Origin: Deltaproteobacteria bacterium RBG_13_61_14
Lineage (GTDB): Bacteria; RBG-13-61-14
Direction: 5' to 3'
Assembly: GCA_001797815.1 (NCBI GenBank)
Contig: MGQK01000081.1
Coordinates: 99,939-128,516, forward strand
DNA length: 28,578 bases
This document shows, piece by piece, positions 12,473-28,342 of this stretch; the first letter of the stretch is position 1; each line of letters begins with the position of its first letter. The notes below the pieces were generated by a model, which worked only from the letters and a program-made list of their open reading frames with translations, was not told the origin of the DNA and did not search any database. The translations under genes and the position numbers were made by a program.

Positions 12473-12870
12473 AAAAAGAGGCCCAGGAATTTTGGGGCCG
12501 GGCGCTGGAAGCTCTTGAAACCGCTCAACACGATTTTCCCAGATATCCAGATGCCGCTGGTTCCAGAGCTTATTATGCCGCCTTCTATGCGGTGACCGCT
12601 CTTTTTGCGCTTCAAGAAAAATCCTTTTCCAAGCACTCGGCAGTGAAAGCAGCCGTTTATCGAGACCTAGTTCGCACCCGGAAATGGTCCCCTGAGCTTG
12701 GCGTTGATTATTCCTCGCTGATGGAACTCAGAATGGTGGGAGATTATGGAGGTTTTAAACATCTTTCCGAGAAAAACGCTTGGAATGCAATTGAAGCCGC
12801 CAAGCGGATCCTCGAGGCGGTCCACCAAGCCCATCCCCATCTCTTACCCTTCCCTTCCGAAAGATCATGA
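12469..12870 (+). CDS. HEPN-domain protein (UPF0332-like), partner of the MNT
   Basis: This 133-residue all-helical HEPN protein starts with GTG inside the MNT stop. The family block SRAYYAAFYAVTALFALQ (about 32-49), the KHSAV turn and the ELRMVGDYGGF segment match UPF0332-type HEPN proteins. The ribonuclease motif R-x4-6-H of HEPN toxins is not visible; the only R...H pair in the last helix (RMVGDYGGFKH) is too widely spaced. It may therefore be a non-nuclease HEPN or a degenerate toxin. Its stop overlaps the AOR start by 4 bp (ATGA), placing it inside the AOR operon. Confidence 0.83.
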   Translation: MKKEAQEFWGRALEALETAQHDFPRYPDAAGSRAYYAAFYAVTALFALQEKSFSKHSAVKAAVYRDLVRTRKWSPELGVDYSSLMELRMVGDYGGFKHLSEKNAWNAIEAAKRILEAVHQAHPHLLPFPSERS

Positions 12871-15309: not shown

Positions 15310-17373
15310 ATGAGCAAAGGCACGAAGGGATCGTGGATGCGGGGTGGGCGTCTTTTCCGGAATTTGCTATTGGCCGGCCTGGTCGCGGGGTCCGGGCTGG
15401 GAGGCTGTCACCGGGGCAAGGACTGGAACGTGCTCCTGATCACCCTGGACACCACCCGGGCCGACGCGCTGAGCTGTTACGGCAACCTGGAAGTGCAGAC
15501 GCCGGCGCTCGACAGCCTGGCCCGGCAGGGGGCGATGTTCGAGCATGCTTACTCTCCCTACCCCATGACCATGCCGGCGCACTCCACCATCCTGACCGGC
15601 ACCCAGCCCCCTACCCACGGCATCCTGGATAACAGCGCCGCCTATCGGCTGTCGCCGGAAGCGCTCACCCTGGCCGAAGTGCTGGCCGACCGCGGCTGGC
15701 AGACTGCGGCTTTTATCAGCGCCGTGGTCTTGAAAAAAGATTTTGGAATTAACCAGGGCTTCCAGCACTGGGATGAAGAGAACCTCCAGCCCCGGGAGGA
15801 TCTCGAGGACCAGTCCTTTGCCCCGATCCCGGAACGCCTGGCCGACCTGACCACCGATGCCGCGCTCGAATGGCTGGGTCACTCGGAGCGGAAAAAATGG
15901 TTTATGTGGATTCATTATTACGATCCGCATTTTCCCTACCGGCCGCCGGCGCCCTATGACCAGAGCGTTCCGGACTACCCCTACCTGGGGGAAGTCGCGT
16001 TCATGGACAGCCAGATCCAGCGGGTGCTGGACCGGCTGAAAGAGCTGGGCATAGAGGAAAAGACGGTGATCGTGGCGGTGGGCGATCACGGGGAAGGCCT
16101 GGGCCGGCATGGCGAGTCCACTCACTCGATCTTCATTTACAACGCCACCCAGCGCGTCCCCTTCCTGTTCCGGCTGCCGGGCCATGACCTGGGCTGCCAG
16201 CTTTTGCCGACGGCCGTGGGCCTCGAGGACGTGATGCCGACTATCCTGGACAGCCTGGGAATTCCGATCCCGAAAACGGTGCAGGGAGAGAGCCTTAAGC
16301 CCCTGATCCTGGGGCAGGAAGCGGACACGCGCGAGCGCTATGCGTTCATGATGTCCGATTATACCTATTTGCAATACGGCTGGTCGCCGCTGGCCGGGAT
16401 CGCGGGGGATCGCTACAAGTTCATCCGGGCGCCCCGGCCGGAGCTTTACGACCTTCTTGAGGACGCGAACGAGGAACGGAATCTCCTTGCGGAACTGCCC
16501 AAGGTGGCCGCGGAAATGGATGATCGTCTGACCCGGATGGAAGCGGCGATGCCGGCTCCTTTTCAGCCGGTTCGAGGAGGAGGAGAGGACCGACTTAAGT
16601 TGGAGAAAGAGTTGGAAGCCCTGGGTTATGCTTCGGCTCCCCAGGTCCGGATTGATCCGGAGAAGGCGCGGCGCAAGGATCCCAAGGACTATGTCTCCCT
16701 GTTCCCGGTCTTCAATGAATTAGTCAAGGTCATGGGGAAGTATGACTTTCCCAAGGCCCTCACGCTCTGCGAGCAGATTCTGGAGAAAGACCCGGAAAAC
16801 CTCCGGGCCTGGTCTACCAAAGCCCGGGCCTTGTTCTTGAGCGGCCGGGAGCCGGAGGCTTTTGCCTGGCTCAAGCAATCGCTCGAGGTGATCGGGGAGT
16901 CCGGGGAGACCTACCGGAAATTAGGGGAGATCAGCCTGGGACTGGGGAGAATGGAGGAGGCGGCGGGCTATTTGAGGAGAGCCATTGAGTTGGACCCTTA
17001 TGATGCGGAGAGTCATTATTACCTGGGCATGATCCTGCTCCAGGCCAAAGGCCAGGAGCAAGTGGCCCTGGAACTTTTTCAGGCCCAGTCCATCAAGGAG
17101 AGCTCCTGGTCGCACCTGGGCCTGGCCCGGTTCTATGAAAAGCAGAAGCAGGTGGACCAAGCCCGGGCGGAGTATGAGCGCGCCCTCGCCATCAACCCGG
17201 ACGAACAGATCGCCACGATTGAATACATCTTGTTCTTGGCGAGCCAGGGGCAGTGGCAGCAGGTCCGGCGGAAAATCGAGGAAGCCTCGGGCAAATGGGA
17301 GCATTTTCTGGAAGACCCTCACATTGTTCCCCTCGCGCGCCGGACCGGGGCCGGCGCCCGGGTTCAGCCTTGA
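15310..17373 (+). CDS. Lipoprotein: sulfatase-fold hydrolase fused to C-terminal TPR repeats
   Basis: This 687-residue protein begins with a lipoprotein signal (lipobox LGGC, Cys33). A sulfatase/alkaline-phosphatase-superfamily domain follows (about 39-430), with metal-site LITLDTTRADAL (D47) and VGDHGEGLGRHGE. Four or more TPR units follow (about 470-670), for example WSTKARALFLSGREPEAFAWLKQSL and YLRRAIELDPYDAESHYYLGMIL. At the nucleophile position the usual C/S-x-P-x-R is T87-M-P-A-H, so formylglycine cannot form there and Thr may act as in phospho-transferases of this superfamily. An internal ATG at 15337 has a better SD (AAGGGA, 6 nt) and would shorten the N-terminus by nine residues. 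Such sulfatase-TPR fusions occur in Acidobacteria and deltaproteobacteria; the substrate is unknown. Confidence 0.85.
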   Translation: MSKGTKGSWMRGGRLFRNLLLAGLVAGSGLGGCHRGKDWNVLLITLDTTRADALSCYGNLEVQTPALDSLARQGAMFEHAYSPYPMTMPAHSTILTGTQPPTHGILDNSAAYRLSPEALTLAEVLADRGWQTAAFISAVVLKKDFGINQGFQHWDEENLQPREDLEDQSFAPIPERLADLTTDAALEWLGHSERKKWFMWIHYYDPHFPYRPPAPYDQSVPDYPYLGEVAFMDSQIQRVLDRLKELGIEEKTVIVAVGDHGEGLGRHGESTHSIFIYNATQRVPFLFRLPGHDLGCQLLPTAVGLEDVMPTILDSLGIPIPKTVQGESLKPLILGQEADTRERYAFMMSDYTYLQYGWSPLAGIAGDRYKFIRAPRPELYDLLEDANEERNLLAELPKVAAEMDDRLTRMEAAMPAPFQPVRGGGEDRLKLEKELEALGYASAPQVRIDPEKARRKDPKDYVSLFPVFNELVKVMGKYDFPKALTLCEQILEKDPENLRAWSTKARALFLSGREPEAFAWLKQSLEVIGESGETYRKLGEISLGLGRMEEAAGYLRRAIELDPYDAESHYYLGMILLQAKGQEQVALELFQAQSIKESSWSHLGLARFYEKQKQVDQARAEYERALAINPDEQIATIEYILFLASQGQWQQVRRKIEEASGKWEHFLEDPHIVPLARRTGAGARVQP

Positions 17374-17424
17374 GGGCCTGTTGCCTGGGGCCTTCGACAA
17401 GCTCAGGCCCCAGGCAACAGGCCC
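17374..17424. repeat. Perfect 19-bp inverted repeat just after the sulfatase-TPR stop
   Basis: GGGCCTGTTGCCTGGGGCC (17374-17392) and its exact complement (17406-17424) flank the 13-nt loop TTCGACAAGCTCA. It would be a very stable hairpin but has no T-tract after it. CCTTCGACAAGCTCAGG, at the loop, is a string I recall as a widespread dispersed repeat in proteobacterial and other genomes. The arms are therefore probably repeat-derived, though the hairpin may still protect or end the transcript. Confidence 0.75.
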
Positions 17425-17596
17425 TTGAATTGGAGGGGGAAAATCCGATTAAAAAAATTATCATTTTTTTCTTGACAAAGTTTTGGCCTTATGCTAAATA
17501 ATGGACTAACCTAGGGATAAGCGAAGAAAAGGACTGAAATTTTTATTCGATTTTTGGTCCCTTTCCGCAAGTTATTCATAGGCCAAAAAGATTAAA

Positions 17597-17653: not shown

Positions 17654-17669
17654 TGGCGCGAATCTTGCA
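17654..17669 (+). promoter_or_regulatory. Candidate sigma-54 (-24/-12) promoter
   Basis: TGGCGCG (17654-17660) and TTGCA (17665-17669) fit the sigma-54 consensus TGGCACG-N4-TTGCW, with one mismatch. The critical GG and GC are exactly 10 nt apart. The predicted start is about 17680, just before an AAGG and the TTG start of the PqqD-like gene. This would make the operon dependent on an enhancer-binding activator, which is not in the window. Confidence 0.55.
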
Positions 17670-17695
17670 AACTTTATTAAAAGGTCATTCTTTCT

Positions 17696-17983
17696 TTGGA
17701 TCAGAAGATTAAGGCGCAAGAAGCGGTCGTTTTTACCGATCTGGATGACGGGAGTGCGGTTTTACTTCATCTGGATAACAAGTTCTATTACAGCCTGAAC
17801 GAAAGCGGAAGCTTTATGTGGCAACTGATTGAAAAGAATGACGGCGCCATGAGCAAGGAGAAGCTTGTGGAAGCCTTATGCGAACAGTTTGATGTGTCCC
17901 CGGACCAGGCCCAATCCGATGTTTCTGAATTTATTGAGGATTTGACCCGGGAAGGCCTGATCTCGGTGAAATCAGATTCATAA
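17696..17983 (+). CDS. PqqD-family RiPP recognition element protein
   Basis: This 95-residue protein has the PqqD/RRE fold pattern: GSAVLLHLDNKFYYSLNESGSFMWQLIE (about 19-46), then a helical KLVEALCEQFDVSPDQAQSDVSEFIEDL segment and a terminal GLI strand. PqqD-like proteins bind the leader of a RiPP precursor and present it to modifying enzymes; in lasso systems the same fold is the B1 protein. It uses a TTG start with AAGG about 11 nt upstream; no ATG is available in the N-terminal region. It opens the RiPP locus, with the B2-type protease gene at 24501 as its likely functional partner. The leader motif YSKPTV in the peptide at 20116 is its expected ligand. Confidence 0.88.
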   Translation: MDQKIKAQEAVVFTDLDDGSAVLLHLDNKFYYSLNESGSFMWQLIEKNDGAMSKEKLVEALCEQFDVSPDQAQSDVSEFIEDLTREGLISVKSDS

Positions 17984-18023
17984 GGTTTAGGTTTAATTTT
18001 AAGGATTGCACAGAGGAGGTGAT

Positions 18024-18097
18024 TTGAGCTTTTTGAGATTTTTGGGCTTCACGCCCAGGGCAGCATGAAAGACATTGCTTTAGAATTTGGGCAATAA
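18024..18097 (+). other. Two minimal overlapping ORFs with a near-perfect SD (possible leader)
   Basis: AGGAGGTGAT (18014-18023) matches the anti-SD over ten bases and is followed by TTG (18024). That opens a 14-codon ORF (MSFLRFLGFTPRAA) ending in TGA at 18066-18068. An ATG at 18065 overlaps this stop (ATGA) and encodes ten residues (MKDIALEFGQ). The lipoprotein SD (AAGGAG, 18107-18112) comes next. A translated leader that tunes the lipoprotein gene is possible. Chance is also plausible, because TTG spacing is short and the peptides are tiny. Confidence 0.25.
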
Positions 18098-18120
18098 TCT
18101 CAGAGAAAGGAGATTTGGGA

Positions 18121-20037
18121 ATGAAAAACTTTTTCACGGTAGGCAAATGGAGCGCGGTTCTCTTGTTGGGGGCCAGCCTCTTATTTGCCGGATGTATGGG
18201 ACCGTCATCTTCGGATGACAGCGCCATCCCGGCAAAAGCCGGCGGGATGGGCGCGAATTATGTTTACAAGTTCTCGGTGGATCCCCAGGCCGGCAAGCTC
18301 GACATTGAGCCGGTGGTTATGGGCACCGCTGTTCAAACCACCGCTTTCCTCGGAACGATCGAGATCACCAGCTCGTGCGCCGGGGCCGTTCTTCCTCTCG
18401 TCTGCCAGATTACTTTCAAAAACCTGACCCCGGGCCAATACATGTCCCGGATGCGCACCTGGGAGTATGCGTGCCCCGGGGCAGACGGCTGCACGCCGCC
18501 CACTACCGCCACCCTGACCACCTCGCACACCTTATACCAGATTCCCGGCGGCGCCACGATAACCCAAGGCGCGGACTATGGCAGCGGCACCGGCATCCTC
18601 GCGGACAATACCGGCGTGTGCATCGTGGAAGACGGCGCCTGGGGGCACATGCAGACCACCGGTTCCTTCGACCTGGATTGCCCCCTCCTTCTGTATTACG
18701 AGAATCAGTTTGTCTCCACCTTGCAGTTCCTGCATCCCGAGTGCGGCTCCATCACCGACACCTGGACCTTCGACGGCGAGAGCACCCCCTACCAGTTCTA
18801 CACCGCCCTGACGGATACCGCGGCCGCCAGCTCCGACGGCACCGCCTTTGGATTGTATGCCGAAGACGGCGCCGGAGACGGCCGCTTTGATCCCGACCGC
18901 ACCACCTTCGTGGTCAAGGCCTATAACCTGGACAACCAGTGGTGCGCCACGGGCACCGACTGTTATGCCGCCTATGCGTACAAGGCTTGCTTGGGGGCGG
19001 CTAATCCTGTAGATGGATATGCGTTAGGCGCGCCCGGATGCAGCACCCCCATTGCCGAGGGCCAGACCCTGGCGCCCGGCCAATACTTCGCGGTCAATAT
19101 GGGCTTTGAATGGCCGGACCGGATCGAAAACCAGACCCACGGCCAGAGATGCAAGATGAGCGCAACTGCTGTCACCGGTCCGTGCAACCTGAGCGGGCTT
19201 GTCTGCAATGAATGGCCCAACTCAGTGTCAATTGTTTACACCTTTGATGCCGCGGTTCTGGAAGCCGTCACCGTCACGGCCATTACCGGCGGGAGTACCG
19301 TTCTCACGGTGGACGCAAATCATGAGATTTATTATGGCAACAAGAAGTCCTATGCAGACACCAATGACGGGATGAACGCGACTCCCAATTACGCATTCGG
19401 CGAGAACTATGTCTTTATCGCCCGGGCGCCCAATGACGCAAGTTTTGCTTTTAAGACAGCCGGTTTTAACCTCCTCACTTGCATCCCAAGCATTAGGGCT
19501 AATACTACGGCAAGATGGGGTGATCTCGTTCAAAATTATGTTGGCAATGGGGCTGTCCAGGATTATCGGGCTAATGCCGATGGCATGGGCAGTTACGGCT
19601 TCACCGGTCTGGCGGAATATTTTGTTAACGCCGACAGCCGGTGCGATACTCGCGACTTGGCCCAGGATTCGGCCGTGGATTACTGGATGGGGCTCCATTA
19701 CATGCAGGTCAAGCCGGGTGCGGCAGCCGGATCGGGCAGCATCATCAAGGCCGAGTCCAATGCGAATAATACCACCGCGCAATGGTTCTCCAGCAATTGC
19801 ACCCGCGACGGGGGCATGGCCGGGGATGATGTCACCGATTGGTATTGGCCGTGCACCGGGCCTCCTTGCGACGGCACCGGGTCAGGCACCTCGACCGCCA
19901 CCCTCGCCGAGCAGGATCCCGGCACGTATTTCTATCAGGCCCAGGAGGTCAGCAACAAGCTTATGCCCGGCGCGTTCAGTGCCGGAGGCGGCAAAGGCTA
20001 CCAGGTCAACAGCGACCACATCTGCGTAACGCCGTAA
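18121..20037 (+). CDS. Cysteine-rich surface lipoprotein of unknown function in the RiPP locus
   Basis: This 638-residue protein has a lipoprotein signal with lipobox FAGC (Cys25). About 20 further Cys are spread through a beta-rich sequence with many Gly, Thr and Asp, for example LVCQITFKNLTPGQYMSRM, WCATGTDCYAAYAYKAC, WPCTGPPCDG and the terminal HICVTP. No known catalytic motif is visible. The ATG at 18121 has AAGGAG 8 nt upstream. It lies between the PqqD-like gene and the precursor-like gene, so it is probably co-transcribed with them. Its many Cys suggest disulfides or metal sites in an extracytoplasmic structure. It may be a target, carrier or receptor for the peptide (inference). I do not recognise the family. 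Confidence 0.8.
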   Translation: MKNFFTVGKWSAVLLLGASLLFAGCMGPSSSDDSAIPAKAGGMGANYVYKFSVDPQAGKLDIEPVVMGTAVQTTAFLGTIEITSSCAGAVLPLVCQITFKNLTPGQYMSRMRTWEYACPGADGCTPPTTATLTTSHTLYQIPGGATITQGADYGSGTGILADNTGVCIVEDGAWGHMQTTGSFDLDCPLLLYYENQFVSTLQFLHPECGSITDTWTFDGESTPYQFYTALTDTAAASSDGTAFGLYAEDGAGDGRFDPDRTTFVVKAYNLDNQWCATGTDCYAAYAYKACLGAANPVDGYALGAPGCSTPIAEGQTLAPGQYFAVNMGFEWPDRIENQTHGQRCKMSATAVTGPCNLSGLVCNEWPNSVSIVYTFDAAVLEAVTVTAITGGSTVLTVDANHEIYYGNKKSYADTNDGMNATPNYAFGENYVFIARAPNDASFAFKTAGFNLLTCIPSIRANTTARWGDLVQNYVGNGAVQDYRANADGMGSYGFTGLAEYFVNADSRCDTRDLAQDSAVDYWMGLHYMQVKPGAAAGSGSIIKAESNANNTTAQWFSSNCTRDGGMAGDDVTDWYWPCTGPPCDGTGSGTSTATLAEQDPGTYFYQAQEVSNKLMPGAFSAGGGKGYQVNSDHICVTP

Positions 20038-20049
20038 CTTTAATCCTGT

Positions 20050-20087
20050 CTTGCCGAGGCGGGAGCTAAAGCTCCCGCCTCCGCAAG
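20050..20087. promoter_or_regulatory. Strong hairpin before the precursor gene
   Basis: GAGGCGGGAGCT (20056-20067) pairs perfectly with AGCTCCCGCCTC (20070-20081). CTTGC (20050-20054) pairs with GCAAG (20083-20087) beyond one C/C mismatch. No T-tract follows, so it should not terminate efficiently. It starts 12 nt after the lipoprotein stop and ends about 28 nt before the precursor ATG. The inner arms GGCGGGAG/CTCCCGCC are identical to those of the terminator at 20283, so the two hairpins can also cross-pair. Confidence 0.7.
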
Positions 20088-20115
20088 CTGAAATGCCAGG
20101 AAGGAGATTCGGAAA

Positions 20116-20262
20116 ATGAAAAAGAAAGTGGAAAAGAAGAAATACAGCAAGCCGACGGTCAAAAAGAATGAGCCGTTGGTCAACATCACCTTTGCCACCG
20201 CGGGTGTCGGCGCCGGCGCGGTCCCTGGAAGCGGCGGTGCAGCCGAGTCGGCCATCGGCTAA
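20116..20262 (+). CDS. Putative RiPP precursor peptide (48 residues), lasso-type leader motif, Gly/Ala core
   Basis: An ATG at 20116, 9 nt after AAGGAG, opens a 48-codon gene. The N-terminus is Lys-rich (MKKKVEKKKYSKPTV) and contains Y10-x2-P13-x-V15, the RRE-binding Y-x-x-P-x-L/V motif of lasso-type leaders. The segment EPLVNITFATA precedes a Gly/Ala-rich C-terminus, GVGAGAVPGSGGAAESAIG. A Thr at -2 before that Gly fits B2-type leader cleavage, so a cut near A29/G30 is likely. The core has no Cys, Trp, Tyr, His or Lys. Glu44 is position 15 of the core, too far for a lasso ring; Ser39 and Ser45 are the only hydroxyls. It lies between two matched hairpins, the second a terminator. Assignment is by composition, motif and context, not by a known family. 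Confidence 0.82.
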   Translation: MKKKVEKKKYSKPTVKKNEPLVNITFATAGVGAGAVPGSGGAAESAIG

Positions 20263-20282
20263 ACGGAATTCAGACGGAAAAA

Positions 20283-20311
20283 GGCGGGAGCATGTCTCCC
20301 GCCTTTTTTTT
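20283..20311 (+). terminator. Intrinsic terminator directly after the precursor gene
   Basis: GGCGGGAG (20283-20290), loop CATGT, CTCCCGCC (20296-20303), then eight T residues (20304-20311). An A-run before the stem extends the pairing. It sits 20 bp after the precursor stop and before the maturation genes. This arrangement usually gives abundant short precursor mRNA with partial read-through. A TATAAT (20326-20331) beyond it might restart transcription, but no -35 box is evident. Confidence 0.88.
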
Positions 20312-20370
20312 GCCTGGAAAAGGGGTATAATAAAGATTAGCATCGGGTTCAGGTTTGCCGCAGAGGGATC

Positions 20371-20425
20371 AAGACACCATTTCCTTTTTTTCTTCTTGGT
20401 GCCTTGGTGGTTAACCTTTTTTGTG
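20371..20425. repeat. Dispersed CTTGGTGCCTTGGTGG-type intergenic repeat
   Basis: The segment contains TTCTTGGTGCCTTGGTGGTT (about 20391-20410) flanked by T-runs. I recall its complement (AACCACCAAGGCACCAAG) as a short repeat scattered between genes in many environmental bacteria. It occupies the gap between the precursor terminator and the HprK-like gene. Function is unknown. Confidence 0.45.
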
Positions 20426-20444
20426 GTTGAGTGAAAACTAACTC

Positions 20445-21440
20445 ATGTTGCTCCAGCGCTATCAGATCCATGGGGTAGGGGTGGAAGTCCAAACCAGTTC
20501 CGACGCCCTTTCCCAACTGGTCCACCAATGCCTCTTCCCTTATGCGGTCCCGGCTTTATCCCGGCTCGACCTGAAGGTGGAATTGGCCGAGGAGAAGCGC
20601 GATTGGCTGGTGCCTACCCGGGCCCGGCGCTTCCTTCGCTACGGCGCTTTGCGCGCCTTTGCCCTGGACGGGTGGCGCTATTTCACGGACTACCTTTCCT
20701 ACTTGGTGGTGGAGCCGGCCGGCGGCCTGATCCGGGGCTATATCGCGGACGAGACCCTGCGCGAACAGGGGGAGCGCTTCTTTCTTAATCTTTTCTTTTC
20801 TCTTCCCCTGTTCGAGGCGCTCCGCCACCATGGGCTTTATTTCCTGCATGCCGCGGCGCTGCGGAGCCCCGAGCAGGAAGGGTATCTGTTCGTGGCCAAC
20901 GCCTATTCGGGCAAGACCTCCCTCACCCTGGCCCTCATCCGCCAGGGTTTCCGCTACCTCTCCGATGATACCGTGTTCCTGCGGAATTCGCCCCAGGGCC
21001 TGGAGGTGCTCTCCTGGGCCCGCGCCTTCCATGTGCCCTCCGAATTGAGCCGGGTCTATCCCGAGCTTGCGCACCTGGCGGCGCGGCCGGAGAGTTCCCC
21101 GTTCCATCCCAAAAAGGAGATGGCGATGGAGGAGTTTTATCCCGAGCGACATATTAACCGCTTGCTCAATCCGCAGTGGCTCTTTTTCCCCGCCCTCACC
21201 GGCGAGCCGGTCACGCGCCTGGAGCCCTTGTCCAGCTCCCAGGCCCTGCCCCTGCTCCTGCCCCAGAGCCTGGCGGTCATGTTCGACCGCGGCCTGGCTC
21301 CCGAGCACCTCCGGGCCTTGAAGCTGCTCCTGGCTTCGGCCCGGTCCTTCCGCCTCTGGAGCGGCACCGATATCAAGAGCGATCCCTCCCGTCTCCAGGC
21401 CGTGCTGCAAAAGGCCCGCGACCCGGGAGCCGAGTCATGA
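20445..21440 (+). CDS. HprK-like kinase-domain protein of the RiPP locus
   Basis: This 331-residue protein carries an HPr kinase/phosphorylase-like P-loop fold. LYFLHAAAL (about 131-139) precedes Walker A A151-x4-GKT (ANAYSGKT), and YLSDDTVFL (171-179) supplies the paired Asp typical of HprK. The N-terminal 130 residues are a separate beta/alpha domain without a recognised motif. HprK-like proteins occur in RiPP clusters; in some lasso systems a homologue phosphorylates a Ser of the precursor. Here Ser39 or Ser45 of the 20116 peptide would be candidate targets (inference). The ATG lacks a good SD, and the stop overlaps the radical SAM start by 4 bp (ATGA). It is not a metabolic HprK, since no HPr or PTS gene is nearby. 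Confidence 0.8.
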   Translation: MLLQRYQIHGVGVEVQTSSDALSQLVHQCLFPYAVPALSRLDLKVELAEEKRDWLVPTRARRFLRYGALRAFALDGWRYFTDYLSYLVVEPAGGLIRGYIADETLREQGERFFLNLFFSLPLFEALRHHGLYFLHAAALRSPEQEGYLFVANAYSGKTSLTLALIRQGFRYLSDDTVFLRNSPQGLEVLSWARAFHVPSELSRVYPELAHLAARPESSPFHPKKEMAMEEFYPERHINRLLNPQWLFFPALTGEPVTRLEPLSSSQALPLLLPQSLAVMFDRGLAPEHLRALKLLLASARSFRLWSGTDIKSDPSRLQAVLQKARDPGAES

Positions 21441-22468
21441 CCGCCCGCCGCCTGGCCTTCGAGCTGACCAACCGCTGCAACCTCGCCTGCCGGCACTGCA
21501 TGCGGGGAACCGCCCAGCCGCGCCACGATCTGCCGTTCGCCTTGATCTGCCGGGTGCTCGATCAGGCCCAGAGGCTCGGCGTTTCCCTGGTGTCTTTCAC
21601 CGGGGGCGAGCCGCTCCTGCACCCGCAATTCGAGGACCTCATCCGCGCCACGGTCGAGCGGGGTTATACCTTCTCCTTTGTCACCAACGGCCACCTCTTG
21701 TCCCGGGTCCTGCCTTTGCTTTCCGAGTCCGCGGTCAAGGAAAAGCTCATCCAAGTGGCCGTCTCCCTGGACGGTCCGGACGCCGAGACCCACGACGCCG
21801 TCCGCGGACCGGGCAGTTTCCGCAAGGTCATGGCCGCCATCGCCGGCTGCCACGCCCGCGGCCTGCCCACCCGGCTGAAGCCGACCGTGAACCGAAAAAA
21901 CCTGGGGCGCCTCGAAGAAATGGCGCTGCTCGCCGCGCACCTGGGCCTGACCGGACTGGATTTCTCCCACATGCACCCCACCCCGGATAACCTGCGCGAC
22001 GGGCTCATGCTCGCGCCCGCCGAGTGGCGGCAGGTGGAAACCGCGGTCGCGCGCCTGGCCGGCGAGTTGAAAATCGCGGTGGGCCTGTGCGCCGGGGTTT
22101 ACGATCCCAGCCCCTTTTACCTTTGCGCCAACCTGAGCATGATCGATCTGTATGTGGACGTGCGCGGCAACCTCTGCCTGTGCTGCATGCTCCCGGCCAT
22201 CCGCGGCGCTGACCCGGATCAGCCCGAGCCGGACGTGATCGCGAACCTCGCCGAGGTGGACCTGGTCGAGGCCCACGTCCGCCTGGTGGACCGCATTGCC
22301 GAGTTCCACCGCCATCGCCTGCGCCGCCTGGCCGCCGGCGAGCTTTCCGAACTGGAACATTTTCAATGCCTGGCCTGCGCCCGTTATTTTGGCAAACTGG
22401 AGTGGTTAAAGGATTTCCCGGATAGTCCCTGGTCCGGGCTGGTTTTGCCCAGAAAGGAACCCCCATGA
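21437..22468 (+). CDS. Radical SAM/SPASM-type peptide maturase
   Basis: This 343-residue enzyme has the radical SAM motif C14-x3-C18-x2-C21 (RCNLACRHCMRG), the SAM-binding GGEP (56-59) and the VTNG strand. A C-terminal Cys-rich auxiliary-cluster region contains C218, C230, C247, C249, C250, C311 and C314, consistent with SPASM or twitch clusters. Such enzymes make C-C, C-S or C-O crosslinks, epimerise residues or cut backbones in RiPP precursors. The neighbouring core has no Cys, so thioether formation on it is excluded. Epimerisation or backbone chemistry is more likely (inference). The start overlaps the HprK-like stop and the end overlaps the next lipoprotein start (both ATGA), so the three are translationally coupled. 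Confidence 0.92.
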   Translation: MTARRLAFELTNRCNLACRHCMRGTAQPRHDLPFALICRVLDQAQRLGVSLVSFTGGEPLLHPQFEDLIRATVERGYTFSFVTNGHLLSRVLPLLSESAVKEKLIQVAVSLDGPDAETHDAVRGPGSFRKVMAAIAGCHARGLPTRLKPTVNRKNLGRLEEMALLAAHLGLTGLDFSHMHPTPDNLRDGLMLAPAEWRQVETAVARLAGELKIAVGLCAGVYDPSPFYLCANLSMIDLYVDVRGNLCLCCMLPAIRGADPDQPEPDVIANLAEVDLVEAHVRLVDRIAEFHRHRLRRLAAGELSELEHFQCLACARYFGKLEWLKDFPDSPWSGLVLPRKEPP

Positions 22469-24489
22469 AAATTCCGCGATGGATCATTGGCGTGTTGCTT
22501 GGCGGAGCCCTCCTGATCCTGCCCGCTTGCGAATACGAGGATGGGAATGGATGCTCGTTCTGGACCAGCCTCCTCGGAGCCGACGCCGACGGGGATAATC
22601 ACGGGACCGGTTGCGGCAACCTCGGCCCGGACTGTGATGATACCAACCCCAACGTCTGGGTCTCCTGTGACCTTTGCCTGGACGCGGACGCCGACGGCTG
22701 GTATGTAGGCTGCGACGCTTATGCCACCATCCCGGGCCCGGACTGCTCGGACAGCGACTCCCGGAACTGGATCTCCTGCGACACCTGCCAGGATGCGGAC
22801 AGCGATAGCTGGTTTGCCGGCTGCGATGATTATACCCATTTGGATGGTCCCGACTGCGACGATGCCGACCCGTTCCACTGGTCGGATTGCCTGACCTGTG
22901 TAGATAAGGACGGCGACCATTATGGGACCGGGTGCGACCTGGGCCTGGACTGCGACGACCGCGACCCCCTCTACTTCTCGCAGTGCCTCTATTTCGAGGT
23001 CCTGGTCTCGCCCCTGTCCCCGGGTTGGGATACGCAACTGATTCCCCCCACCCTCTTTGACCCCACCGTCTTCTATCGAGGCGTGAGTGCGACGCGGGTC
23101 AACGGGCAGGTGAACGCCGGCGTGACCGCCAACGCTGACGCCGACTCCCTCACCATTACCCTCACCTCGCTGTCCGCGACCAACTGGCCGCGGCTGTGGC
23201 TGGTGCTGCGCAACCTCGAACCCAATGCCCAACTCCTGACTCCCCCGGACGCCGAGAATGGCAACACCCTCTACTTCCCCGGGGGAGAGTCCGTCTTCGT
23301 CTTTGGACCCCTGGCCCCGACCGCGAGCGCGTCGGTCACCCTGGATTTCGACCGGGTGAATCCCGCCGAGGGTTACGGCTTTGCTTTTGATATTCTCTTG
23401 ATTGAGGATCGCCTGGTCTTCAGCGCCAAACCCGACGCGGCCACTCCTTTCCAACTCGTGACCATCCGGCCCGACGGGACCGGCCGCAGCCAGGTGACCG
23501 ACCTCGCCCTGCACGCTCTGACCGCGACCTTTGCCCCGGGCGGAGAGCAGATCGCCTTTGCCGTGTCAGCCGACTACTACGATATTTGGACCGTGCATCC
23601 CGACGGCTCCCACTTGACCCAGGTCTCCCACGGCCCCGGCTCCGCCCTCAATCCTTCCTTTTCCCCCGACGGCAAAAGTCTGGTCTATGATTGCATCGGC
23701 CGGTCCCCGGATTCTAATCAGGACATCTGTCTCAACGATGCTCAGGGCGGCGCGGAAACCGTCTTCATCAATGGCTTCTCCTCCATCGCCTCGGTCCTGC
23801 CTGACTACACCCAAGGCTGGTATCTAAAAAAGGTCTTCAATCCCACCTGGTCTCCGGACGGGACCAAGATCGTCTTCATGGCGCAACACCCCCAATTTTA
23901 CGCCCGCTATTATTATCTTCTCCAAAACATGGATCCACTCACCGGCGACACCATCGGGAACCCCATTATCTTGAACCGACCCGGCAATCCCACTCTCAAG
24001 TCCTGGATCACGGTCACCTCTTCTTTCAAATGGGGTCCGGACAGCCGGCATGCGACCTTTGACGCCATCCGCTACACGGTAAGGGGGACTTATCCAGGGA
24101 CCGCCTTCTATCCTAACTGTATTGATCCCCCGGACGCCAGGTGCTTCATGGTGGATTATAACGGCCCCTGGATCCTGGATCTGGCCCCCCTGCAAGCGGA
24201 CCTGCTTCCCGGCCAGACCACCGGGCTCAACCTTGAAAATTATGCCGTCCGGGTGCTCCAATCCGTCTCCGGTCTCTCTCAAAATCCCACCCTCTCCGCT
24301 GAGCAATCCGATAAAAGAGTTATAGTGGCCTTTAACTATCACTACACCTCGGTCTGGAGCATTGTCTCCCTGCCCCTCGACATCAATTACGTGGTCAGCT
24401 CCACCACGATCCAACCCTTGGTCAACGACGGAGTTGATAACCCTCTGCCTTCCTTCATGCCGCCGCTCCGGCCCGGATTCTATCGCTGA
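22465..24489 (+). CDS. Lipoprotein with MopE-like metal-binding repeats and a TolB-like propeller
   Basis: This 674-residue protein has a lipobox (LPAC, Cys22). Four repeats of about 30-37 residues follow (about 39-174), each with D-x-D-x-D near the start, a GC, a GPDC-D/S-D acidic run and a closing S-C-D-x-C. They resemble the Ca/Cu-binding repeats of MopE-like proteins. A beta-sandwich-like region follows (about 175-310). The C-terminal part has TolB/PD40 propeller blades, seen as VTIRPDGTGRSQVTD, IWTVHPDGSHLTQVSH, FSPDGKSLVYD and WSPDGTKIVFM. Its start overlaps the radical SAM stop (ATGA), so it belongs to the RiPP operon. It may bind metal or the matured peptide at the cell surface; that is inference. 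Confidence 0.85.
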   Translation: MKIPRWIIGVLLGGALLILPACEYEDGNGCSFWTSLLGADADGDNHGTGCGNLGPDCDDTNPNVWVSCDLCLDADADGWYVGCDAYATIPGPDCSDSDSRNWISCDTCQDADSDSWFAGCDDYTHLDGPDCDDADPFHWSDCLTCVDKDGDHYGTGCDLGLDCDDRDPLYFSQCLYFEVLVSPLSPGWDTQLIPPTLFDPTVFYRGVSATRVNGQVNAGVTANADADSLTITLTSLSATNWPRLWLVLRNLEPNAQLLTPPDAENGNTLYFPGGESVFVFGPLAPTASASVTLDFDRVNPAEGYGFAFDILLIEDRLVFSAKPDAATPFQLVTIRPDGTGRSQVTDLALHALTATFAPGGEQIAFAVSADYYDIWTVHPDGSHLTQVSHGPGSALNPSFSPDGKSLVYDCIGRSPDSNQDICLNDAQGGAETVFINGFSSIASVLPDYTQGWYLKKVFNPTWSPDGTKIVFMAQHPQFYARYYYLLQNMDPLTGDTIGNPIILNRPGNPTLKSWITVTSSFKWGPDSRHATFDAIRYTVRGTYPGTAFYPNCIDPPDARCFMVDYNGPWILDLAPLQADLLPGQTTGLNLENYAVRVLQSVSGLSQNPTLSAEQSDKRVIVAFNYHYTSVWSIVSLPLDINYVVSSTTIQPLVNDGVDNPLPSFMPPLRPGFYR

Positions 24490-24500
24490 GGTCAGCCGGC

Positions 24501-24941
24501 ATGGCGGATTGGGTCCGGCGCTTCCGAAAACACATTCACTCGGCCGCTGATCTCTGGCTGCTCCTCCGCCTCGCCGCCTGGCTGGTGCTGGAACCCATCC
24601 TCCTCCGCCTGCTCCCCTTGCCCCGGCTCCTGGCCTGGCATACCCCGGCCCGGCCGCCGGTTCCCTCCCACCAGCGGGACCGGATCGTCCTCTATGCCCA
24701 GATCCTCCTCAGCGACCGCGCCAACCTCTTTGAGCGAACCTGCCTCAAGCGTAGTCTCGTCCTCTACCGCTTCCTCCACGACGAACACCAGTCCCCCCGC
24801 TTCTGCCTCGGCGTCCGCTCTCACAACGGCCGCCTGCAAGGCCATAGCTGGGTTACGTTCCGCGGATCCCCCCTGTATCCCGGCGAGGACCAGGGTTATT
24901 CGGTGACCTTTGTGTATCCGCCGGAAAAGGAGGGGCCGTGA
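24501..24941 (+). CDS. Lasso B2-type transglutaminase-like leader peptidase
   Basis: This 146-residue protein matches the B2 (Transglut_core3) family that removes leaders in lasso and related RiPP pathways. The N-terminal helical part (about 12-45) is hydrophobic. The catalytic Cys81 is in RTCLKRSLVLYRFL and His115 in GHSWVTFRG, the family Cys-His pair; the third acidic residue is not clear. In lasso systems B2 works with a PqqD-like B1 that binds the leader YxxP motif, here the gene at 17696. No asparagine-synthetase-like lasso cyclase is present in the window. It starts 11 bp after the MopE/TolB lipoprotein, and its stop overlaps the GNAT start by 4 bp (GTGA). Confidence 0.88.
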   Translation: MADWVRRFRKHIHSAADLWLLLRLAAWLVLEPILLRLLPLPRLLAWHTPARPPVPSHQRDRIVLYAQILLSDRANLFERTCLKRSLVLYRFLHDEHQSPRFCLGVRSHNGRLQGHSWVTFRGSPLYPGEDQGYSVTFVYPPEKEGP

Positions 24942-25534
24942 GCGGGTTCCAGATCCGGCCGGCCGGCCAGGAAGATCTCGATTCCTTGGCCCGCCTCTTT
25001 GCCGCCCACCTCGACGAGCAAGCCGGGTGGGACCGACTCTTTGCCCGGTCGCGCAACCCGGCCTTTGACAGCTTGCGCTTCATCACCCGCTCCTGGCAGG
25101 CGGGCCTCCAGCAGTTCCTGGTGGCGGACGACGGCTCGCGCCTGCTCGGCTTTATCCGGTTCAGCATCCAGCCCGCCGCCGCGGCCGCGCCGAGACCTTC
25201 TCGCCGCAAGGGATCTCGAAGCTTGACCTGGGGGCGCCTGCTCCGGGCCGCGTCTCGTTACCTCCTGCGCTGGGCGGAGCGGTGGCCCGATTCCACCTTC
25301 CTGACCCGCGGTGTAACCACCGGCTATCTGGCCGACCTCTACGTGCTCCCGGCCGCTCGCCGCCAGGGCATCGGCACGCGCCTGGTCCAGGCCACTTTGC
25401 GCTGCTTTGCCGAGCAGGGGATCCCGGAGGTCTATTTGCAGGTGGTGGATCAAAACCAGGCCGGCGTCGAGTTCTGGAAAAAGATGGGCTTTGTCCCCCA
25501 TCGCCACACCCTCGTGCATCCCGGCCCTTCCTGA
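24938..25534 (+). CDS. GNAT-family N-acetyltransferase at the end of the RiPP operon
   Basis: This 198-residue GNAT enzyme transfers an acyl group from acyl-CoA. The acetyl-CoA pyrophosphate loop is in LYVLPAARRQGIGTRLVQATL (motif R-Q-G-I-G-T), followed by VYLQVVDQNQAGVEFWKKMGF (motif B). A low-complexity PAAAAAPRPSRR insert (about 79-90) separates the N-terminal strands. It uses GTG inside the protease stop. As the last coupled gene it could acetylate the new N-terminus of the mature peptide (Gly30) after leader removal, as in some RiPP pathways. That is inference; a small-molecule or protein target is possible. Confidence 0.87.
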   Translation: MSGFQIRPAGQEDLDSLARLFAAHLDEQAGWDRLFARSRNPAFDSLRFITRSWQAGLQQFLVADDGSRLLGFIRFSIQPAAAAAPRPSRRKGSRSLTWGRLLRAASRYLLRWAERWPDSTFLTRGVTTGYLADLYVLPAARRQGIGTRLVQATLRCFAEQGIPEVYLQVVDQNQAGVEFWKKMGFVPHRHTLVHPGPS

Positions 25535-25582: not shown

Positions 25583-26611
25583 TTATAATCTGAATAAAAA
25601 GGGAACGGAGGGAGATGGCGCCGGCTGGATCCGGCCGGCCAGACCCGGCGTCGCGTGCCAACGGCCCTTGGCGTCCACGATCAACGCCTCGATCCCGGGT
25701 GGCGAGGGCAGGAGCTTGATCCCCTGCTCCGGACCCAGCACCAACAGGGCCGTGGCCCAAGCGTCCGCCTCCCAGGCTTCGCTTGCAATCACCGTGGCGC
25801 CCAAAACCCCCTCCGCCGGCCGGCCGGTGCGCGGGTCGAGGATGTGCCCGTACCGCCGGCCCTGGATTTCAACAAAGCGCTCATATTGGCCCGAAGTGGC
25901 GACGGCTTGGTTTTGGATCTCGAGCTCGCCCAACAGACGATCACGCCGCGCCGGGTCTTGAATCCCGATCCGCCAGGGCTTCTCGCCCGGCCGCGTAAAA
26001 GCCCGCAAGTCGCCGCCCGCGGTCACCAGCGCCCGATCAACGCCCGGGACCTTGAGCGCCGCCAGGGCCCGGTCCACCGCGTAGCCCTTGGCGATCGCGC
26101 CCAGGTCCAGGCGCATTCCCGCCTCCGGCAAAAACACCGTCCCGGCCGAGCGGTCCACCTGGATCCGGCGCCAGCCCACCCGCTTGAGCCGGGCCGCGAT
26201 CTCGGCCGCCTCCGGCACCCGGGCCGGCTTCTCCCCCGAAAAATCCCAGAGCCCGCCGAGCGCGGCATAGCTGATGTCGAACGCGCCGTCCGAGAGCCGG
26301 CTCACCTCGAGCGACCGCTCGATCGCCTCCAGCACCTCGGGACTCACCTGCACCGGCGCCACTCCCGCCGCCCGGTTAATCCGGCTGAGCTCGCTGTCCT
26401 CCCGGAAAGTGCTGATCAACCGGTCCACCCGCCGCACTTCCTCAAAAGCCAAAGCGACCCGCGCCTCCACCAGCTTGTGGTCTCGGCCCTCGGCCGTGAT
26501 CTCGACCAGGGTGCCCATCAGGGTTTCGGCCTGCCCGACCCGGGCCGAACGGCAGTGGACACCAAAGATCAATCCCACGATCAGGAACAGGATTTTGAAG
26601 CGAGGAATCAT
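25583..26611 (-). CDS. apbE: FAD:protein FMN transferase (ApbE family) lipoprotein
   Basis: This 342-residue ApbE-type flavin transferase attaches FMN to Thr/Ser of exported redox subunits. It has a lipoprotein signal with FGVHC (lipobox-like, Cys20). Family blocks are AETLMGTLVEI, VDRLISTFREDSELSRIN, DGAFDISYAALGGLWDFSG, LDLGAIAKGYAVDRA, ALVTAGGDLRA and GHILDPRTGRPA, with the late A-W-A-T-A-L block (EADAWATALLVLG). The start overlaps the FGE-like stop by 4 bp (ATGA), so the two are coupled. No flavoprotein target with the Rnf/Nqr-type motif is present in the window. Confidence 0.93.
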   Translation of the reverse strand: MIPRFKILFLIVGLIFGVHCRSARVGQAETLMGTLVEITAEGRDHKLVEARVALAFEEVRRVDRLISTFREDSELSRINRAAGVAPVQVSPEVLEAIERSLEVSRLSDGAFDISYAALGGLWDFSGEKPARVPEAAEIAARLKRVGWRRIQVDRSAGTVFLPEAGMRLDLGAIAKGYAVDRALAALKVPGVDRALVTAGGDLRAFTRPGEKPWRIGIQDPARRDRLLGELEIQNQAVATSGQYERFVEIQGRRYGHILDPRTGRPAEGVLGATVIASEAWEADAWATALLVLGPEQGIKLLPSPPGIEALIVDAKGRWHATPGLAGRIQPAPSPSVPFLFRL

Positions 26612-27375
26612 TGGGCCGGGATGCTCACCGCGCAGCGAAAGCCGCCCTGCTCGGTCGCGTCCTGGGGATCCAGCGGATAACGCACGTAGCTCTTCAGCAG
26701 CTCAATCGAATAGAAAAAGGCGCCGCCCCGGGCCACCCGCCGCTTGCCGGTCTCGTCAAACGCGAGCGGCCCGCCGGGATAGGCGCGGTACCAGTCCGCG
26801 GTCCATTCCCAGACGTTGCCGGCCAGGTCCAGGGCCCCGTAAGGGCTCTGGCCCTTGGGATAGCTGCCCGCCGGCGCCGGGGACTCGTTCGCGTTGGTGC
26901 GGTTGCGGCTGCGCCCGGGGTCCCAGCCGTTGCCCCAGGGATAGGTCCGGCCGTTAAGGCCCCGCGCCGCCTTTTCCCACTCGGCTTCGCGGGGCAGCCT
27001 TCGGCCCGCCCAGCGGCAATAGGCGTCGGCGTCCTCCCAGGTGACATGGTTCACCGGCAGGTCCTCTTGTCCGGGAGCGAGAGTGCCTTGCCGGAGATGC
27101 ACCGGCAGCGGCCGGCCTACTGCCTGGCAAAAGCGGAAATACTGCCCGTTGCTCACTTCGGTGCGGTCAAGGTAAAAGGTCTCCAGAAAAACCTTGCGCT
27201 CGGGCCGGCTCGCCTCCGGCCCGGTGTTGCTGCCCAGGCGGAACTCCCCGGCCGGCACCTTGACCAGGAGGGCGCCGTCCTTTTTCCAGCGGATTCGATC
27301 CGGCAGGGAAGTTCCGCTGCTCGCGGCGAGAAGAATGATTGGGGTCAGTGCTTGACTTATGACTTTTCGTATCAT
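26608..27375 (-). CDS. FGE-sulfatase-fold (SUMF1/PvdO-like) exported protein, probably non-catalytic
   Basis: This 255-residue protein has a signal-like N-terminus and the FGE fold. Visible blocks are VPAGEFRLGSN, FYLDRTEVSNGQYFRFC, LPVNHVTWEDADAYCRWAGRRLPREAEWEKAARG, YPWGN, GALDLAGNVWEWTADWY, RVARGGAF and the terminal GGFRCAVS. The Cys pair that binds copper in true formylglycine-generating enzymes is absent; the matching segment reads LKSYVRYPLDP. It is therefore probably a binding or assembly protein rather than a sulfatase activator. Its first residues, including KVISQALTP, are encoded by a copy of the RAYT terminal repeat (27341-27365), so the native 5' end may have been replaced. It is coupled to apbE by ATGA. 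Confidence 0.82.
   Translation of the reverse strand: MIRKVISQALTPIILLAASSGTSLPDRIRWKKDGALLVKVPAGEFRLGSNTGPEASRPERKVFLETFYLDRTEVSNGQYFRFCQAVGRPLPVHLRQGTLAPGQEDLPVNHVTWEDADAYCRWAGRRLPREAEWEKAARGLNGRTYPWGNGWDPGRSRNRTNANESPAPAGSYPKGQSPYGALDLAGNVWEWTADWYRAYPGGPLAFDETGKRRVARGGAFFYSIELLKSYVRYPLDPQDATEQGGFRCAVSIPAQ
27341..27365. repeat. Extra copy of the RAYT terminal repeat inside the FGE-like gene
   Basis: GGGGTCAGTGCTTGACTTAT begins at 27341 and continues through GACTT. It is nearly identical to the repeat at 27376 and to the inverted copy at 28381-28408. On the minus strand it encodes the KVISQALTP segment of the FGE-like signal region. It lies outside the element proper. Confidence 0.85.
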
Positions 27376-27391: not shown

Positions 27392-28342
27392 TTATGATTT
27401 AAGCGCCTGGACTTTTTTCCTTAGATCCCGGTGTTGGGCCAATTGTTTGCGGAACTTGCTTAACCCGCGGCTGACTCCCGAACTGCTGATCCCCATCTGC
27501 TCCGCCACCGCGGAGACACTGATCCCGCAATGCTCCACCAGGTGATAGTAGGCAGCCAGCCGGGCCGGGAAATTGCGGCCGCGACGGCGCAAAGCGTGGC
27601 TCTCGACCTCGAAGAGTTCCGCCACCCGCGCCAGCTCGTCTGGCAAATCGAGGTTAGGACGGGATGCCCTTCTGAAGGAGGGTACCGATTCGTGTTTGCC
27701 GGCCGGGCCATACCGCTTGGTCAACTCCTCTAGCACCTCCCGAGGCCCCAGCACCACCCGGCCCCGCATCTGCTCCCAGAAATCCGGCTCGACACCGGCC
27801 AGATCCAGGCAGACCTTGCGGTAGTGTTTCCGCTGGTTCTTTTCCCCCGAGCCGTATTCCGCCAGCACTTCCTCGGGCCGAAGCCAGGCAAAGCGGGACG
27901 GCGCGCGGGTGTAGTCTCGGAAACTGGACCACTCGTAGCTCGCGGGGTCGGCCACGATTCCGGCGCGCACCGGGTTGAGGTGAAGATACATGGAGAGCTG
28001 GAGCCAATGGGCCTCGTCCGCCACCAAAATAGATTTGTATCGGCCCTGGAAGAGATGGCCGGACCGCTGATGCCGACGGTTGCAACGAGCCGTGTAGGTG
28101 CCGTTGAGCCACTTCATGGCCGCAGCCAAGTTGGGCTGAAGGGTGCAGAGGAAGAGATGGTAGTGGTTGCTCATCAGGCAAAAAGCGAAGACCTTGAGGC
28201 CGAACCGGGAGGCGGCGCGCCCGAGCAGTTCGAGGAATTCTCGCCGGTCTTCGGGACCGGAGAAGATGTCTTGGCGGTTGTTGCCCCGGGCAGTGACATG
28301 ATAGACGGCGCCGGGGAATTGGATTCTCCAAGGTCGCGCCAT
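27392..28342 (-). CDS. REP-associated tyrosine transposase with DnaA-like C-terminal HTH
   Basis: This 316-residue protein has the Y1_Tnp/RAYT signature. It begins ARPWRIQFPGAVYHVTARGN, has the HUH-type motif SNHYHLFL (H60, H62) and the nucleophile Tyr119 in QLSMYLHLNPVRAG. Residues about 215-310 form an extra helical domain with a helix-turn-helix (GISVSAVAEQMGISSSGVSRGLSKF) similar to the DnaA C-terminal domain found in some RAYTs. It would nick and rejoin single-stranded DNA at the flanking repeats. All key residues are intact, so it may be active. Length and frame are complete. Confidence 0.93.
   Translation of the reverse strand: MARPWRIQFPGAVYHVTARGNNRQDIFSGPEDRREFLELLGRAASRFGLKVFAFCLMSNHYHLFLCTLQPNLAAAMKWLNGTYTARCNRRHQRSGHLFQGRYKSILVADEAHWLQLSMYLHLNPVRAGIVADPASYEWSSFRDYTRAPSRFAWLRPEEVLAEYGSGEKNQRKHYRKVCLDLAGVEPDFWEQMRGRVVLGPREVLEELTKRYGPAGKHESVPSFRRASRPNLDLPDELARVAELFEVESHALRRRGRNFPARLAAYYHLVEHCGISVSAVAEQMGISSSGVSRGLSKFRKQLAQHRDLRKKVQALKS

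Follow-up and report, generated by a model that had tools for sequence, protein, structure and literature searches.

A predicted peptide pathway combining lasso-type leader handling with a kinase and a radical SAM enzyme in Deltaproteobacteria bacterium RBG_13_61_14

Whether the leader-processing proteins of lasso peptides can serve a pathway that has no lasso cyclase is the question raised by a gene cluster of Deltaproteobacteria bacterium RBG_13_61_14, located in a 28,578-nucleotide stretch of its genome (GCA_001797815.1, contig MGQK01000081.1, positions 99,939 to 128,516; hereafter the window). The source genome (G000; 4.7 Mb, 95% complete) carries the window on a contig of 193 kb (C81). 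Eight collinear genes on the + strand, between 17.7 and 25.5 kb, encode a PqqD-like protein, a lipoprotein, a 48-residue peptide, an HprK-like kinase, a radical S-adenosylmethionine (rSAM) enzyme, a second lipoprotein, a B2 leader peptidase and a GNAT acetyltransferase. They probably specify a ribosomally synthesised and post-translationally modified peptide (RiPP) pathway in which lasso-type leader handling is retained and a kinase/rSAM pair takes the place of the lasso cyclase. An earlier note on this DNA had drawn the same inference of lasso-type leader handling and rSAM chemistry without a cyclase, and it is supported here by the parts present, the layout of the leader, the catalytic motifs, the lack of both a cyclase and acceptor residues, and the occurrence of related loci in further genomes. 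The phylum is sampled by three genomes, G000 and two metagenome-assembled genomes (MAGs) from Alinen lake sediment, G001 and G002, which are entered as 'uncultured delta proteobacterium' and belong to another family of the same order.

The precursor and its leader-handling proteins

The 48-residue open reading frame (ORF) is taken as a real precursor gene because it has a strong ribosome-binding site, is flanked by hairpins (Table 1) and has a homologue in the same gene order (PqqD, lipoprotein 1, peptide) in G001, a peptide of 43 residues, MKMKKEKKSYQKPEIKKNKHLVNVTFLSGPSVPGTPGSPGSVV (E 2e-26). Its leader runs to F26, followed by the predicted core ATAGVGAGAVPGSGGAAESAIG. Assuming cleavage after F26, Y10, P13, V15 and T25 occupy positions -17, -14, -12 and -2, which is the spacing published for lasso leaders, YxxPxL at -17 to -12 with Thr or Ile at -2 (PMC10368454). 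The G001 leader has the same layout, and residue -12 is V in the window and I in G001 instead of L. The pattern [YF]xxPx[LIV]x9[TI]x fits seven precursors, namely those of the window, G001, the Acidobacteriota genomes G565, G496 and G425 (two precursors), and a true lasso precursor of G174; in shuffling tests of six precursors the motif gave values of 0.0003-0.011. The precursor of a genuine lasso locus with kinase, precursor and cyclase (L097) also matches the window peptide, with 41% identity over 44 residues. The peptide is therefore a gene-encoded leader-core precursor conserved alongside modifying enzymes, as expected of a RiPP. Other matches to the peptide profile in the three genomes of the phylum, all with E above 0.4, were taken as chance.

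The proteins predicted to act on this leader are likewise lasso-type. The PqqD-like protein scores 72.7 bits against PF05402 (cut-off 23.4), its best NCBIfam matches are two lasso_PqqD models (lasso_PqqD_Bac, 57.5 bits, under its cut-off of 80), and its nearest solved structure is TbiB1, a lasso RiPP recognition element (RRE; E 4e-11), in keeping with a discrete lasso-type B1 RRE. The B2 protein exceeds the cut-offs of Transglut_core3 (40.7 bits, cut-off 26) and of the NCBIfam lasso B2 model, and retains the catalytic Cys and the HxW motif in alignment. The kinase has an unusual P-loop, VANAYSGKTS, which departs from the full GxxxxGK[ST], and its FLH...SGKT...SDD segments align with the kinases of lasso loci L027, L029 and L097, thus preserving the His-Lys-Asp-Asp set reported to be essential for lasso kinases (PMC9266682). 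When genome contigs were scanned with the kinase, matches came from both sister MAGs and from six more distant kinases, most of them in lasso loci (L027, L029, L030) or other PqqD/kinase loci. The domain assignments of the earlier note hold for the PqqD, Radical_SAM, B2, GNAT and TolB-like propeller proteins, all above their cut-offs, while the kinase is HprK-like weakly by profile.

Lack of a cyclase, and related loci elsewhere

Two defining features of a lasso pathway, a cyclase and an Asp/Glu acceptor at core positions 7-9, are both missing, which argues that this is not one. No cyclase-type (PF00733) protein is encoded on the 193-kb contig or in the complete Acidobacteriota operons, and none of the predicted cores (ATAGVGAGAVPGSGGAAESAIG, LSGPSVPGTPGSPGSVV, GLRVLEAFSASFLAP, GLRVLEAFTASFIAP, FFQSTTSGPTN and FFQLTDSGVTNP) has Asp or Glu at positions 7-9. 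An ordinary lasso pathway, with its cyclase encoded elsewhere in the genome and the rSAM enzyme merely tailoring the product, would account for the lasso-type leader, B1, B2 and kinase, and PF00733 proteins do occur in other parts of all three genomes of the phylum. Those of G000, however, lie on contigs other than C81, and the one found in G002 on C368, 16 kb away and the sole PF00733 protein located on any cluster contig, is rejected as a cyclase; it is an ordinary AsnB (458 bits against 267 for asparagine synthase; 232 bits in the lasso-cyclase model, under 525). Together with the missing acceptor residues and the loci without a cyclase, two complete operons among them, this makes the lasso explanation very unlikely.

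The cyclase-free arrangement recurs outside the phylum. When 395 + 396 genomes from two further groups were searched with a profile made from the C-terminal region of the rSAM enzyme, 11 proved to contain relatives. Two Acidobacteriota, G565 (L118) and G496 (L119), have six-gene operons of B2, peptide, kinase, rSAM, PqqD and nucleotidyltransferase with a predicted 15-residue core, and a third, G425 (L120), has peptide, kinase, rSAM, PqqD and a second peptide; none includes a cyclase. The two G425 precursors (L120:9718-9464 and 6658-6479) are paralogues with near-identical leaders that flank one kinase-rSAM-PqqD operon, and their cores are the last two listed above. The B2 of L119 is intact by translation, and the precursor gene there lies at L119:9293-9448. 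In G565 the kinase gene (L118:9582-8593) is broken into two frames, by sequencing error or decay, and is intact in the neighbour species. Every related locus that is sufficiently complete for a judgement (those of G001, G565, G496 and G425) encodes a small peptide with a lasso-type leader and shows no cyclase, so the inference withstood the refutation by homologous loci that the earlier note had set for it.

Kinase-rSAM adjacency is kept in G000, G001, G002 and the three Acidobacteriota operons. Conservation in the sister genomes of the kinase-rSAM and PqqD-lipoprotein 1 pairs and, in G001, of the peptide indicates that the gene association is more than chance. The earlier note had proposed looking for co-occurrence of the peptide and both lipoproteins; lipoprotein 1 is conserved in each of the phylum's three genomes and missing from the Acidobacteriota operons, and lipoprotein 2 is variable, as is the GNAT.

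Several observations weigh against this reading. The assemblies of G001 and G002 split the cluster, with PqqD-lipoprotein 1(-peptide) found on C699 and C98 and kinase-rSAM-B2 on C317 and C368, respectively, so that the unity of the pathway there rests on homology. The precursor of G002 was not recovered, its contig ending there, and the position of the Ser/Thr target varies among precursors. The kinase and the rSAM enzyme score far under all curated equivalog cut-offs, and the sequence does not reveal the rSAM reaction. A second PqqD match in G001, on C578, proved unrelated.

The radical SAM enzyme and related systems

In a tree of 32 rSAM sequences, 15 form one clade (support 96/97), consisting of the enzymes of the window, G001 and G002, two of G338, those of the three Acidobacteriota members, and seven further relatives that have no kinase gene next to them. 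A C-terminal CxxCx4[GD]KxxW motif is common to most of them, and the window, G001 and G002 enzymes group together (99/98). The kinase-linked state is clustered on the tree and needs three changes, which implies repeated gain or loss of the kinase association. Members of this clade with neither a kinase nor PqqD as neighbour also occur at L112:9371-10950, L113, L114, L115, L116 and L117; the relatives L111-L117 were rejected as family members for lack of an adjacent kinase and PqqD. Scans of viral contigs with PqqD and rSAM and a plasmid search with rSAM gave no matches.

The composition of the cores restricts the possible chemistry. Both the window and G001 cores are free of Cys, Trp, Tyr, His and Lys, and that of the window also has no aromatic or basic residue; no predicted core of the group contains a Cys that could form the thioether of a sactipeptide or ranthipeptide. 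Since the window core offers neither Cys for thioethers nor Trp, Tyr, His or Lys for the usual cross-links, epimerisation or an alpha-carbon/ether change near Ser, Ala or Gly is put forward as the best guess, and a doubtful one.

What each enzyme does, in which order they act, where the leader is cut and how the lipoproteins contribute are predicted as follows. The B1-like protein would bind the YxxPxV motif of the leader and present the core to the enzymes. With the leader still attached, the kinase would phosphorylate a core Ser or Thr, as its family suggests, and the rSAM enzyme would make a second change in the core. For lasso peptides, B1 has been shown also to accelerate an HprK-like kinase working on the core (PMC10368454). 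B2, acting with B1, would then cleave after F26, with T at -2, to release a modified peptide of 22 residues, whose freed N-terminus may be acetylated by the GNAT in the G000 organism. Outside the cell, lipoprotein 1 probably serves to bind or display the product or to give protection from it.

Among known systems, the phosphorylated lasso clusters (paeninodin, pseudomycoidin psm and Bradymonas bsf) share the YxxPxL-type leader, in which Thr/Ile stands at -2, as well as discrete B1 and B2 proteins and an HprK-like kinase. The Acidobacteriota members further resemble psm (PMC9266682) in having a kinase and a nucleotidyltransferase gene, with rSAM replacing the cyclase. Unlike these clusters, the present locus has no C cyclase and no D/E at core positions 7-9, and its rSAM gene is translationally coupled to that of the kinase. 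In the PQQ and mycofactocin pathways, too, a ribosomal peptide is modified by an rSAM/SPASM enzyme that a PqqD-type RRE guides to it, but no PqqABCE or Mft set is present at the locus, which has lasso B2 leader processing and a kinase. The HPr-rel-A/B systems (TIGR04352, TIGR04353, TIGR04355) pair an HprK-related kinase with a PqqD-like partner and differ from the present locus with its rSAM, B2 and precursor; the kinase scores 35.6 bits against HprK_rel_A (cut-off 200) and the PqqD protein 26.1 bits (cut-off 35).

The SynChlorMet system (SCM; TIGR04248-04251) likewise combines a PqqD homologue, rSAM/SPASM enzymes and a P-loop kinase-like protein. If the locus were a SynChlorMet- or HPr-rel-A-like cassette, its product would be a cofactor derived from the peptide, or would be linked to a surface polymer, and no free modified peptide would result. 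ScmF is the top family match of the rSAM enzyme (108.1 bits; ScmE 85.9), and the PqqD protein matches ScmD (39.8). These scores are far under the SCM cut-offs of 400, 400 and 100 bits, and ScmC gives no match. Also in favour of this reading, the rSAM enzymes of an SCM-like PqqD-rSAM-rSAM-kinase cassette near polysaccharide genes, that of G338 described below, belong to the same clade, and the window cluster has upstream of it a gene for a tungsten-type aldehyde oxidoreductase; that gene was not seen at the G001 and G002 loci. The window has one rSAM enzyme where SCM has two, with a different C-terminal region, and it includes a B2 peptidase, a lasso-type leader and a gene-encoded precursor, none of which, to our knowledge, is part of SCM. 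An SCM-like function is therefore unlikely.

Two cassettes of related make-up were noted. That of G338, from another group (C168; L096:3243-7388), encodes a signal-peptidase-like protein and PqqD, followed by a coupled pair of rSAM enzymes, an HprK-like kinase and a second PqqD-like protein, and we take it to resemble the SynChlorMet cassette. It adjoins a Wzz/tyrosine-kinase gene among polysaccharide genes, with a nucleotidyltransferase and an S26-GNAT fusion farther along, and no precursor with the leader motif was found beside it. In a Candidatus Poribacteria locus (L026:6345-10693), a PqqD-like/rSAM fusion is accompanied by an HprK-like kinase and a nucleotidyltransferase; an upstream ORF of 95 residues ends in CRPxPCRPG repeats and could be its precursor.

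The component families are all known, and their combination was previously noticed only statistically. RRE-Finder counted about 300 lasso-type RREs adjoining rSAM genes, the same kind of co-occurrence as here, and listed them as false positives of its lasso-RRE model; the parts of that report concerned with these cases describe no family, precursor, kinase or operon (PMC7470986). No description of an HprK, rSAM and PqqD family with precursor and kinase was found in the open-access literature. That the earlier note recognised no described family with this gene set agrees with this, with the qualification that the co-occurrence had been counted. Its proposal of a new RiPP class goes further than the sequence allows, as classes are defined by their products, and there is a fair chance that it will apply once the product is known. 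More tentatively, the group could form a separate RiPP class spanning at least two phyla, with a distinct CxxCx4[GD]KxxW rSAM clade catalysing a novel reaction on a core that is phosphorylated and free of Cys; in the small phylum of G000 the product would then act with a dedicated outer-membrane lipoprotein.

Lipoproteins, gene layout and implications

Lipoprotein 1 is single copy in G000, G001 and G002 and always lies directly 3' of PqqD; it is a putative cognate outer-membrane partner. It has no match in Pfam or NCBIfam, and AlphaFold2 gave no usable fold from the single sequence (mean predicted local distance difference test score 30.6). Its invariable position would also suit a role as the enzymes' substrate, with the peptide merely an activator or escort. 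However, the lasso-type leader sits on the peptide, and the Acidobacteriota operons, in which no lipoprotein 1 homologue is found, hold peptide, kinase, rSAM, PqqD and B2, making such a role scarcely credible. Lipoprotein 2 carries a PD40 propeller (44.4 bits, cut-off 20.9) that is retained in the rSAM-B2 interval of G002 (27% over 529 residues, E 8e-32), where Ig-like repeats precede it and a MopE-repeat protein is encoded upstream of the kinase. In G001, B2 directly follows rSAM and lipoprotein 2 is absent. No GNAT was found beside B2 in G001 or G002, so that lipoprotein 2 and the GNAT are both regarded as variable accessories. Lipoprotein 2 was rejected as a lasso isopeptidase (24.6 bits, cut-off 400), the similarity being of the propeller only.

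The gene order given in the earlier note is confirmed, all ORFs being present, as are its three 4-bp overlaps, with the ATG codons of rSAM and lipoprotein 2 and the GTG of GNAT each overlapping the preceding stop exactly (Table 1). Its PqqD start at 17654 is not; the earliest possible in-frame start is the TTG at 17696, and TTG is also the PqqD start in G001 and G002. The hairpins around the precursor, the second of which divides the cluster, suggest two transcripts, PqqD-lipoprotein 1-peptide and kinase-rSAM-lipoprotein 2-B2-GNAT.

Table 1. Positions of the cluster genes and hairpins in the window
Feature	Coordinates	Strand	Basis
PqqD-family RRE, putative lasso B1-like leader-binding protein	17696..17983	+	PF05402, lasso_PqqD models, TbiB1
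Lipoprotein 1, without known domain	18121..20037	+	ATG preceded by Shine-Dalgarno sequence; lipobox ...LLFAGC
Strong hairpin in lipoprotein 1-precursor gap	20048..20092	+	-32.3 kcal/mol, z -7.3; counterpart in G001
Precursor peptide, 48 aa	20116..20262	+	Shine-Dalgarno AGGAAGGAG; G001 homologue; leader motif
Terminator-like hairpin 3' of precursor	20276..20318	+	Counterpart in G001
HprK-like kinase	20445..21440	+	His-Lys-Asp-Asp motif of lasso kinases
Radical SAM enzyme	21437..22468	+	PF04055 Radical_SAM 86.6 bits vs cut-off 29.5; CxxxCxxC; C-terminal CxxCx4GKxxW
Lipoprotein 2	22465..24489	+	Acidic MopE-like repeats, then TolB-like propeller at C-terminus
B2 leader peptidase (Transglut_core3)	24501..24941	+	NF033537 52.4 bits vs cut-off 33
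GNAT acetyltransferase	24938..25534	+	PF00583 62.5 bits vs cut-off 20.7; translationally coupled to B2

A near-perfect palindrome lies directly upstream of the cluster (17373-17425; GGGCCTGTTGCCTGGGGCCT...AGGCCCCAGGCAACAGGCCC enclosing TTCGACAAGCTCAGG), preceded by genes for a sulfatase-TPR lipoprotein (15310-17373) and the tungsten-type aldehyde ferredoxin oxidoreductase (12867-15029). Downstream, ApbE and a protein with an FGE-sulfatase domain are encoded on the opposite strand (25583-27375). None of these four genes was seen at the G001 and G002 loci. An IS200-like transposase gene is located at 27392-28342, and a similar one adjoins PqqD in G001 (L021:7688-8248).

Lasso leader processing by B1, B2 and kinase is usually regarded as bound to the lasso cyclase. 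The present group suggests that it is instead a portable module able to feed another core chemistry. An rSAM clade with Gly/Ala/Ser/Pro cores as its substrates, in which Cys, Trp, Tyr and Lys are all missing, would have to differ in its chemistry from most characterised peptide rSAM cross-links. The compact six-gene operons of the Acidobacteriota make direct reconstitution feasible, so that both the portable module and the rSAM chemistry are open to test.

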